In this document: one piece after another, positions 13,875 to 16,157 of the stretch
Numbering within the stretch: position 1 is the first letter of the stretch
Layout of the letters: every line of letters begins with the position of its first letter
Source of the DNA: Ochrovirga pacifica
GTDB taxonomy: Bacteria; Bacteroidota; Bacteroidia; Flavobacteriales; Flavobacteriaceae
Assembly (NCBI RefSeq): GCF_000220525.1
Contig: NZ_AFPK01000029.1
Coordinates: 62,006-126,005, forward strand
Length of the DNA: 64,000 nt
Direction of reading: 5' to 3'
Made by a program: the position numbers and the translations under genes
Notes under the pieces: model-generated
What the model was told of the DNA's origin: nothing
What the model saw: the letters and a program-made list of their open reading frames with translations, nothing else
Databases searched by the model: none

Positions 13875-14456
13875 CTATCCGTGTATCGATTCTTTGGTTC
13901 CTAAATTTCTCATCAACAAAGCTTCGTAATCTAACAATTTTTTCCATTTTTCATCAACTTGTACCCTGTTTCCATACTGCCTTGCAAAATTTAAAAATAA
14001 GGTATAGTGATTGGCTTCTGACACCATTAAGTCTCTGTAAAATTTAGCCAATTCTGCATCTTCTAAATGTTCGGATAGCAATCTAAATCTTTCACAACTT
14101 CTGGCTTCTATCAAAGCAGCATACAGCAGCCTATGTACCAACTGATCCGTTCTGCTTCCACCTTTTGGAAAAAAAGTAACCAACTGAACCACATACTCAT
14201 CTTTTCGGTCTCTACCTAAGGGAATTCCTTTAGCAATCAATCTGTCGTGTACCAATTTAAAATGGCTTATTTCCTCTTTTACCAAAGCAATCATTTCTGT
14301 TACCAATTCGGTATACTCCGGAAAGCTAACAATCAAAGATATTGCTGTCGATGCTGCCTTTTGTTCACAATGTGCATGATCTATTAGTATTTCATCAATA
14401 TTTTTTTCTGCAATGTTTGCCCATCTTGGGTCTGTTGGTAATTTAAGGCCTAACAT
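13875..14456 (-). CDS. miaE: tRNA-(ms2io6A37) hydroxylase
   Basis: A diiron monooxygenase that hydroxylates the isopentenyl group of ms2i6A37 in tRNA. Its 193 residues form a ferritin-like four-helix bundle with metal ligands visible in HAHCEQKAAS (about 28-37), KEEISHFKLVHD (about 59-70), EARSCERF (about 116-123) and SEANHYTLF (about 147-155). It lies in a minus-strand run behind dnaX (11-bp gap) and directly ahead of the DUF4268 gene. Confidence 0.92.
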   Translation of the reverse strand: MLGLKLPTDPRWANIAEKNIDEILIDHAHCEQKAASTAISLIVSFPEYTELVTEMIALVKEEISHFKLVHDRLIAKGIPLGRDRKDEYVVQLVTFFPKGGSRTDQLVHRLLYAALIEARSCERFRLLSEHLEDAELAKFYRDLMVSEANHYTLFLNFARQYGNRVQVDEKWKKLLDYEALLMRNLGTKESIHG

Positions 14457-14467
14457 AAATTTTACTA

Positions 14468-15103
14468 TTAAATATCTAATCCAAATGTATTTTTAAGTAA
14501 CAATACATCTGGATTTTCTTCTGCTAATTTTTGAAACTTATCTTCTCGTGTATAAATAAGCTTTTTCTTCTGAGTCTTATCAACCTTGGTCTGAATCTGA
14601 ATACCGTAATTGTTTAACGAACTTCTTAAAAACCTTAATAATTTAGGTTTTACGGAACCTAACTGATCTTCCATCAACTTGGTTGGTAACGTAAATAAAA
14701 TTTGTCCATCTTGCAAAACGGGATCGTTTACGTTGATAACTGATGCTGTGTTTAAATCTCCCTCACTTTTCATCTTAGCACCAAATGATTGCCACTTTTC
14801 TATTAACTGAGATTCTGTGAATTTGTCTCTTGGTTTTTTGCTTAAATCTTCTGTTTGTACAAAATCTTTGTCTGTTAGCTTTTCTCTTTTTAATGAAAGT
14901 GCAGATTTTCTTCTGTTTACCTGAGTTCTTCTAATAGGTATAGACTCAACCTCTTTTTTTACAGTCTGAACTGCACTAGGCTGTTTGTTATCCGATGCGC
15001 TACCCTTTACTGTGTCTTTTTTGATTTCATTTTTTTCTTTAGGCGAATTGAGCCTGAAAAAAGTTGCGGGGATTATGAAATTACTGCTTTTTTTTTTGTC
15101 CAT
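14468..15103 (-). CDS. dnaX: DNA polymerase III tau subunit, C-terminal part in a shifted frame
   Basis: This frame encodes the C-terminal half of bacteroidetal DnaX. It has a linker starting NFIIPATFFRL, a basic low-complexity section, and the conserved C-terminal domain (FTESQLIEKWQSFGAKMKSEG ... LRFLRSSLNNYGIQI ... LLLKNTFGLDI). In relatives these residues follow directly after the GxKKK that ends the upstream frame. It overlaps the N-terminal dnaX frame by 23 bp. The junction is a run of ten A residues (15097-15088 on the minus strand). An ATG (15103) happens to open the frame, so separate initiation is also possible. In tau this part binds polymerase and helicase. Confidence 0.85.
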   Translation of the reverse strand: MDKKKSSNFIIPATFFRLNSPKEKNEIKKDTVKGSASDNKQPSAVQTVKKEVESIPIRRTQVNRRKSALSLKREKLTDKDFVQTEDLSKKPRDKFTESQLIEKWQSFGAKMKSEGDLNTASVINVNDPVLQDGQILFTLPTKLMEDQLGSVKPKLLRFLRSSLNNYGIQIQTKVDKTQKKKLIYTREDKFQKLAEENPDVLLLKNTFGLDI

Positions 15104-16157
15104 CGTGAGTGATAGAAGCCAGCTGCATTAAGCACAATTCTACTAGCAAACGCTGATTTTTACTTGCTCTATAACTTAAATCTGTTGTATTTGCCTTTTC
15201 TATTGCTGTTAGTAAAAATGAAAAATCGGCCTTGCTAGCTTGTTCTAAATATTGCTTTTTTGCTGTATCTCCAACCTCTAGTAATTGTATAGTAGCACTG
15301 TCTTTAGCTACTAATAAATCTCTAAAATGAGATGCTAACCCATTGATAAAATGTTGTCCATCAAATCCTTTAGACAATACTTGATTAAAAGCTATTAAAA
15401 CTTCGGGTATCTTATTGGTAATTAGTAAATCGGTAATATTAAAATACACATCATAATCTAACACATTTAGATTTTCTGTTACCGCTTGTCTTGTTAGATT
15501 TTTTCCAGAAAAGCTTATCACCCTATCATAAATAGACAAAGCATCTCTCATAGCTCCGTCTGCTTTTTGTGCAATAATGTGCAAAGCATCATCTTCGGCT
15601 TGTACACCTTCTTGCACTGCAATATTTTTTAAATGCTCTTTGGCAGATTGAACTGTGATTCTCTTAAAATCAAAAATTTGACACCTTGACAGGATTGTAG
15701 GTATAATTTTGTGCTTTTCAGTAGTGGCCAAAATAAAAATTGCATGTACAGGTGGTTCTTCTAAAGTCTTTAAAAAAGCGTTAAAAGCTGCAGAAGACAA
15801 CATGTGTACCTCATCTATTATATATACTTTGTATTTACCTACTTGTGGAGGTATTCTTACTTGATCTATTAAACTTCTAATATCGTCAACAGAGTTGTTA
15901 GAGGCAGCATCTAGTTCAAAAATATTAAATGCAAAATCGTCATCATCTACTCCCGTAGCTTGCTCATTTATTTTTTTTGCTAAAATTCTAGCACAGGTTG
16001 TTTTCCCAACTCCTCTTGGCCCTGTAAAAAGTAAAGCTTGAGCTAAATGGTTGTTTTCTATTGCATTTTCTAAAGTATTGGTAATAGACTGCTGCCCTAC
16101 AACATCTTTAAATGTGGCAGGTCTATACTTACGTGCAGATACTACAAATGGCTCCAT
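15081..16157 (-). CDS. dnaX: DNA polymerase III clamp-loader gamma-length DnaX (domains I-III)
   Basis: AAA+ clamp-loader ATPase. The Walker A motif GPRGVGKTTCARILAKK (about 45-61), Walker B IIDEVHMLS (about 115-123) and the SRC-type arginine-finger motif TILSRCQIFDFKRI are intact. It is 358 residues from the ATG at 16157; a TTG at 16166 is a weaker alternative. It ends GQKKKQ-stop just after a run of ten A residues, right at the end of domain III (RLLVELCLMQLASI), much like the gamma form in other bacteria. The -1 frame also stops within a few codons; only the +1 frame continues, into the tau C-terminal part. Transcripts with nine A residues would encode full tau. A sequencing error in the homopolymer is the main alternative. 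Confidence 0.95.
   Translation of the reverse strand: MEPFVVSARKYRPATFKDVVGQQSITNTLENAIENNHLAQALLFTGPRGVGKTTCARILAKKINEQATGVDDDDFAFNIFELDAASNNSVDDIRSLIDQVRIPPQVGKYKVYIIDEVHMLSSAAFNAFLKTLEEPPVHAIFILATTEKHKIIPTILSRCQIFDFKRITVQSAKEHLKNIAVQEGVQAEDDALHIIAQKADGAMRDALSIYDRVISFSGKNLTRQAVTENLNVLDYDVYFNITDLLITNKIPEVLIAFNQVLSKGFDGQHFINGLASHFRDLLVAKDSATIQLLEVGDTAKKQYLEQASKADFSFLLTAIEKANTTDLSYRASKNQRLLVELCLMQLASITHDGQKKKQ
15088..15097 (-). promoter_or_regulatory. dnaX: A10 run at the dnaX frame junction (candidate slippage site)
   Basis: On the coding strand the sequence reads GGAC, ten A residues, then GCAG. With ten A residues the frame closes at TAA two codons later; with nine it enters the tau C-terminal frame. 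Thermus thermophilus dnaX makes gamma and tau by transcriptional slippage on a run of nine A residues, so the site has a direct precedent. Confidence 0.6.

Follow-up and report, generated by a model that had tools for sequence, protein, structure and literature searches.

Split dnaX gene at a run of ten A residues in Ochrovirga pacifica and the probable slippage of RNA polymerase at its gamma/tau junction

The dnaX locus of Ochrovirga pacifica

The window (the whole 64,000-nt stretch of DNA that was analysed, from contig NZ_AFPK01000029.1 of Ochrovirga pacifica, whose 3.38-Mb assembly is a 77-contig draft) carried dnaX on its minus strand, and both the N-terminal clamp-loader part and the C-terminal tau tail of DnaX were encoded at the locus in two overlapping frames, with the following features:

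15081..16157, minus strand: dnaX gamma frame, from ATG at 16157 to TAA at 15083-15081; 358 aa, 39.9 kDa; TIGR02397 match above cut-off
15088..15097, minus strand: A10 run, proposed slip site; gamma-frame codons 354-357
15081..15083, minus strand: TAA that would close gamma on a transcript with 10 A; product of 358 aa
15073..15075, minus strand: TAA that would close gamma on a transcript with 11 A; product of 361 aa
14468..15103, minus strand: tau tail frame, 211 aa from ATG at 15103; NF011531 match

The plus strand read ten T at 15088-15097, which gives the coding strand its A10. The gamma frame had the C-terminus ...GQKKKQ followed by the TAA at 15083-15081, and the tail lay in the +1 frame relative to the gamma frame and stayed open across A10 down to 14468. 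An earlier sequence-only reading of this DNA had claimed that dnaX was split at A10 into a gamma-length frame and a tail frame, and this was borne out by the frames of 358 aa and 211 aa; its further claim that tau could be reached only by losing one A (or gaining two) also held, since translation of dnaX with 9, 10, and 11 A gave products of 562, 358, and 361 aa, respectively.

The 358-aa frame was the gamma part of DnaX: TIGR02397 (dnaX_nterm) matched it with 378 bits (cut-off 250), positions 3-354 of the 355-position profile lying on residues 6-346, and the match thus ended at residue 346. Its residues 4-270 were matched by solved gamma/tau chains (E 2e-58), the best solved relatives being chains annotated as DNA polymerase III gamma or tau, from E. 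coli, and Pfam domain III was weak (residues 222-349; 22.2 bits, below the cut-off of 24.4). The tail frame matched positions 433-613 of the 614-position DnaX model NF011531 (E 3e-23), each half of the split dnaX scoring below the cut-off of this model (685); a Pfam search of the tail frame found no domain. Wenyingzhuangia aestuarii was the closest named relative found among the best 80 of 586 candidates, at 86% across the gamma part. A MiaE-like tRNA hydroxylase gene (PF06175; window positions 13875-14456) began 11 bases after the dnaX tail on the same strand, and the two genes perhaps form one operon.

The genome contained 37 distinct runs of ten A or longer. A10 runs also lay within other ORFs of the same genome (L287, L298, L307, L381, L383, L384, and L386), and for this reason a lone A10 was rejected as evidence. 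A10 was nevertheless scarcer than predicted, with three runs in the window versus 12.3 expected from dinucleotide shuffles (97 of 100 shuffles had at least three). Three of the ORFs with an A10 were as follows: (i) the Omp85-family gene L298, with A10 at codon 262 of 745 and the ORF open through the run; (ii) the RNA pseudouridine synthase gene L383, with A10 at codon 479 of 491 and the ORF likewise open; and (iii) the apiosidase-like ORF L307 (374 aa), which terminated just past its A10 (codon 370), a 455-aa ORF on the same strand beginning directly after this run.

Recurrence of the A run, selection on it, and drift of its register

The sequence comparison was applied to 340 dnaX loci, 321 of them with a distinct core, from genomes of the family, order, class, and phylum together with 80 named dnaX records (the best 80 of 586 candidates). 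The first set had matches in 39 of 40 genomes, and 30 loci were used. The family set had matches in 116 of 120 genomes, and only the best 30 loci (22 of them new) were retained, so the family sample was biased to near relatives. The loci used from the outer groups were 58 of 62 matches outside the family, 80 of 93 outside the order, and 46 of 73 outside the class. The run was defined as the longest stretch of A residues in an interval that opened 30 nt ahead of the end of residue 349 and closed 190 nt beyond it; this rule was set after the first tables had been inspected, and a few chance runs may be counted under it in A-rich genomes.

The junction comparison with relatives, which the sequence-only reading had proposed, gave an A run of 9-14 at the same place in 284 of the 321 distinct dnaX loci across the phylum. 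Runs of at least nine were present in 132/133 loci of the family, 54/58 of the rest of the order, 70/84 of the rest of the class, and 28/46 of the rest of the phylum, and the run was present in 27 of 28 loci of a set added afterwards, from a different family in the order. The upstream core of the same genes had a run of at least nine in 6/321 (three in the family, three in the order, and none in the class or the phylum). Runs of 7-8 A at the junction were rare (4/321 loci), L177 and L190 having A7 under a narrower search rule. A10 was also found in G+C-rich genomes, for example in L248 and L263 (0.67-0.68 G+C of the piece) and in L371, L374, and L378 (0.60-0.64 G+C). Relatives had the run at this dnaX codon, and with it stops in both off-frames (see below), more often than chance allows; a chance run at the dnaX junction was rejected on recurrence, off-frame stops, and synonymous shuffles.

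Junctions without the run were found in 37/321 loci: 32 had a single frame of 528 aa or more, four (L037, L171, L180, and L184) had a frame that ended at 341-356, and one (L269) had no stop within the piece examined. L037 was the sole family locus without the run; its gamma part ended GAA AAG TAA without a strong hairpin (z 0.0), and a long tail frame lay in another register. L184, from a 300-kb genome, had a short frame and lacked a long tail frame.

The DNA register was assigned for 282 loci, L166 and L202 (cut by contig ends) being set aside from this count. Tau was in frame in 204 loci, one more A was needed in 67, and one fewer (or two more) was needed in 11; the window dnaX belonged to the last and rarest kind. 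The sequence-only reading had held that unbroken homologues lacking a long A run, together with clean RNA reads, would speak against slippage, and such homologues were not found as the rule: the 204 homologues of 282 with an unbroken tau frame had the same A run and off-frame stops. The in-frame-tau homologues are consequently also predicted to slip.

In 277/282 loci, both off-frames closed at most 60 nt from where the run began, the exceptions being L183, L191, L192, L327, and L352. The closure-distance test took 276 of the 284 run-bearing loci: median closure was 14 nt, whereas synonymous shuffles gave 61 nt and other places in the genes gave 43 nt, and the distance lay under the gene's own shuffle median in 241/276 genes. 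Within the family, one off-frame stop was often the TAA arising from ATA plus ATT in the tail frame; L023, L085, and L110 had these codons replaced, yet the stop still arose, and these codon changes are read as suggesting selection for an off-frame stop. The run itself was kept as A9 or longer after synonymous shuffling in 53.8/106 genes of the family, 17.5/35 of the order, 18.5/48 of the class, and 2.8/17 of the phylum, a test confined to genes that had tau in frame and were preselected for the run, with shuffles that ignored relatedness. The outer groups showed a strong effect and the AT-rich family a modest one; because half of the runs would survive synonymous shuffling in this family, the run alone is weak evidence there.

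Run length and register were combined as follows: (i) runs of 9 in 30 in-frame, seven one-more, and no one-fewer loci; (ii) runs of 10 in 154/204 in-frame, 48/67 one-more, and 5/11 one-fewer loci; (iii) runs of 11 in 15, 11, and six loci, respectively; and (iv) longer runs in five, one, and no loci, respectively. At least 43 register changes were counted on the tree (17 within the family sample), versus 67-75 in 20 label shuffles, so the register was inherited for a time yet often changed. W. aestuarii needed one more A, and the window dnaX one fewer. All three registers were found within Lacinutrix: L078 and L112 had A10 with tau in frame, L087 had A9 and needed one more A, and L089 had A11 and needed one fewer. 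The tail dN/dS relative to L078 was 0.17 for L112, 0.11 for L087, and 0.10 for L089, and tails in all three registers were thus under purifying selection. Two loci of the order from genomes of about 0.6 Mb, L191 and L192, had A11 in the same rare register as the window dnaX, and one of their off-frames stopped later (codon 391 in L191 and codon 381 in L192).

Transcriptional slippage and its alternatives

These comparisons make it very probable that RNA polymerase, rather than the ribosome, slips at A10, which would make the run a programmed transcriptional slip site, and comparison with relatives argues with still greater confidence that both gamma and tau are made; the sequence-only reading had considered slippage giving both forms plausible, and the relatives support this well. 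The dnaX transcripts would be expected to vary in run length: 10 or 11 A would give gamma of 358 or 361 aa, because a stop sits just past the run in each of these frames, and 9 or 12 A would give tau (562 aa with 9). We infer in this way that the RNA is heterogeneous in run length, that the polymerase is the slipping agent, and that cells make and use both proteins. No ribosomal shift in one fixed direction serves three coexisting registers, while a polymerase that spreads transcript lengths can.

A homopolymer error in sequencing or assembly, with a true run of nine, tau in one frame, and nothing special at the site, is an unlikely account. The source assembly is a 77-contig draft and the register of the window dnaX is the rarest (11/282), both as an error would have it, but split dnaX genes were also present in single-contig genomes (e.g., L028, L033, L129, L145, and L195), the same register was common to L046 and L194, two species whose cores were 97.5% identical, and ORFs across other A10 runs of the O. 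pacifica genome remained open. Such an error would in any case alter the register and not the mechanism, since a nine-A gene still has the conserved slip site. The weakest part of the analysis is the exact number of A residues, ten, which comes from a 77-contig draft; this number has no bearing on the proposed polymerase slippage, which stands even if the assembly is one A off, because runs of 9 and 11 lie within the conserved range.

Ribosomes are known to slide on long A runs, and both forms could come from ribosomes that shift frame at the run while reading an accurately transcribed mRNA, whether or not stimulators assist; we regard this as quite improbable. The window gamma frame (0 frame) contained A_AAA_AAG within CAA AAA AAA AAG, and a modest hairpin (-10 kcal/mol, z -2.2) lay behind the run and counts against polymerase slippage. 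A minus-1 shift in the window dnaX, however, runs into a stop at codon 361 and never enters the tail frame, and it was rejected as the route to tau. A minus-1 heptamer, moreover, does not require nine or more A residues, and a shift in a single direction cannot serve the three coexisting registers. Among 280 loci, no hairpin enrichment was found behind the run, where the mean z of +0.28 (standard error 0.07) indicated a slightly weaker fold than elsewhere in the gene (+0.54, +0.10, -0.12, and +0.38 in the family, order, class, and phylum sets, respectively), and no enrichment of SD-like motifs was found upstream of it (14/280 versus 7.4% at control places).

Three loci of the same order without the run, L171, L180, and L422, had CCA AAA AAG (containing A_AAA_AAG), an immediate stop, and a hairpin, with z against other gene pieces of -6.8, -2.5, and -2.5, respectively; some other gene piece folded equally strongly in L180 and L422, and the tail continued in the minus-1 frame in L171 and L180. 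In a quick tree built from 41 rows, they formed one side of a branch whose support was 100. These signals suggest that the lineage can use the ribosomal route, and in these three genes a ribosomal minus-1 signal has probably replaced the A run and would yield the same two products.

Gamma and tail might alternatively be two proteins, the tail being made by re-initiation at ATG 15103, which is very unlikely. The window tail frame did have an ATG 6 nt ahead of the run, but an ATG upstream of the tail was present in only 7 of the 80 split genes (a count that includes two genes cut by a contig end), the window dnaX being among these seven, and 72/80 had neither an upstream ATG nor an ATG within the first 20 tail codons; in the in-frame-tau genes, gamma and tail parts form one protein. 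The separate tail protein that the sequence-only reading had entertained therefore does not hold as a general device.

Decay, with progressive loss of the tail and gamma as the sole product, is scarcely credible: it has a parallel in the short frame of L184, but split-gene tails were under purifying selection wherever this could be measured (dN/dS 0.10 for L089 versus L078 and 0.24 for L009 versus L040; comparison against L039 gave no ratio, its synonymous sites being saturated), and the window tail matched NF011531 to its end.

For polymerase slippage on a wider scale, we favour, with fair though limited confidence, the reading that register-blind transcriptional slippage decodes dnaX across much of the phylum: the run (mostly of ten) and its two stops would be selected, the register would drift over three states, the frequencies of these states may reflect how much of each slipped transcript is produced, and a single clade would have switched to a ribosomal minus-1 signal. 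The DNA register would be free to drift because transcripts in every register come from the polymerase in any case. The rarest register calls for a lost A or two gained A residues, which would fit a spread that falls off with slip size.

Comparison with known systems

Two-ORF dnaX genes with slippage had been called undescribed in Bacteroidota by the sequence-only reading, a claim that needs correction; the interpretation given in that reading is partly supported overall. According to the available part of PMC3711429 (Antonov et al. 2013), 17 two-ORF dnaX genes were described from 12 genera, nine of them with 10 A's, and slippage was proposed; those named in this part include genes of Chloroherpeton thalassium and two Chlorobium species (Chlorobi), and Bacteroidota may be among the nine A10 species. 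As in these genes, the window gamma frame stops right past the A run and the tail lies in another frame. The 17 genes are described there as minus-1 at the DNA level, whereas the window tail lies in the +1 frame; on our reading of the term, 'minus-1' is taken to be the register needing one more A (67/282 here). The search, as the same part of that paper presents it, targeted broken frames, so in-frame-tau genes with the run, the majority here, would have been invisible to it.

Slippage at A9 has been measured for Thermus thermophilus dnaX (Larsen et al. 2000, as reported in the available parts of PMC1088944 and PMC5009743). The window dnaX resembles it in the A run at the gamma end and in the nearby stops in both non-tau frames. 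The Thermus DNA encodes tau in one frame, whereas the window DNA encodes gamma, an unbroken tau frame being absent in the window dnaX and present in 204/282 relatives; slippage was measured in Thermus and is proposed here from sequence comparison.

The E. coli dnaX gene yields gamma through a minus-1 ribosomal frameshift at A_AAA_AAG, aided by a hairpin and by an SD-like stimulator that lies upstream (PMC5009743 and PMC3711429, in the parts available). It shares with the window dnaX the production of gamma and, as proposed here, tau from one gene with the cut at about the same domain border, but a minus-1 shift in the window dnaX gives only a 361-aa gamma and never tau. L171, L180, and L422 resemble the E. 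coli mechanism in the two-ORF arrangement. The importance of the short form gamma has long been disputed in E. coli, as the available part of PMC5009743 relates; the slip site and paired stops found across the phylum, also in G+C-rich pieces and across register changes, suggest selection for both forms.

In these bacteria, an essential gene that is split is not necessarily an error or a pseudogene, and the A9, A10, and A11 series within the single genus Lacinutrix offers natural material for measuring slippage yield.

Slippage also joins two overlapping ORFs into a longer protein in Shigella mxiE, which differs from the window dnaX in being another gene with a U run and an added nucleotide (PMC1088944, available part). 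No account of register-drifting dnaX slippage in Bacteroidota or Chlorobi was found among the matches listed, which covered the titles and abstract beginnings of open-licence papers. The kind of system is already known, since two-ORF A10 dnaX genes (PMC3711429) and the A9 of Thermus have been described in the parts of these sources available; within the literature searched, the features that appear to be new are the register of the window dnaX, the presence of the site in a large majority of genes that have tau in frame, and the drift of the register.
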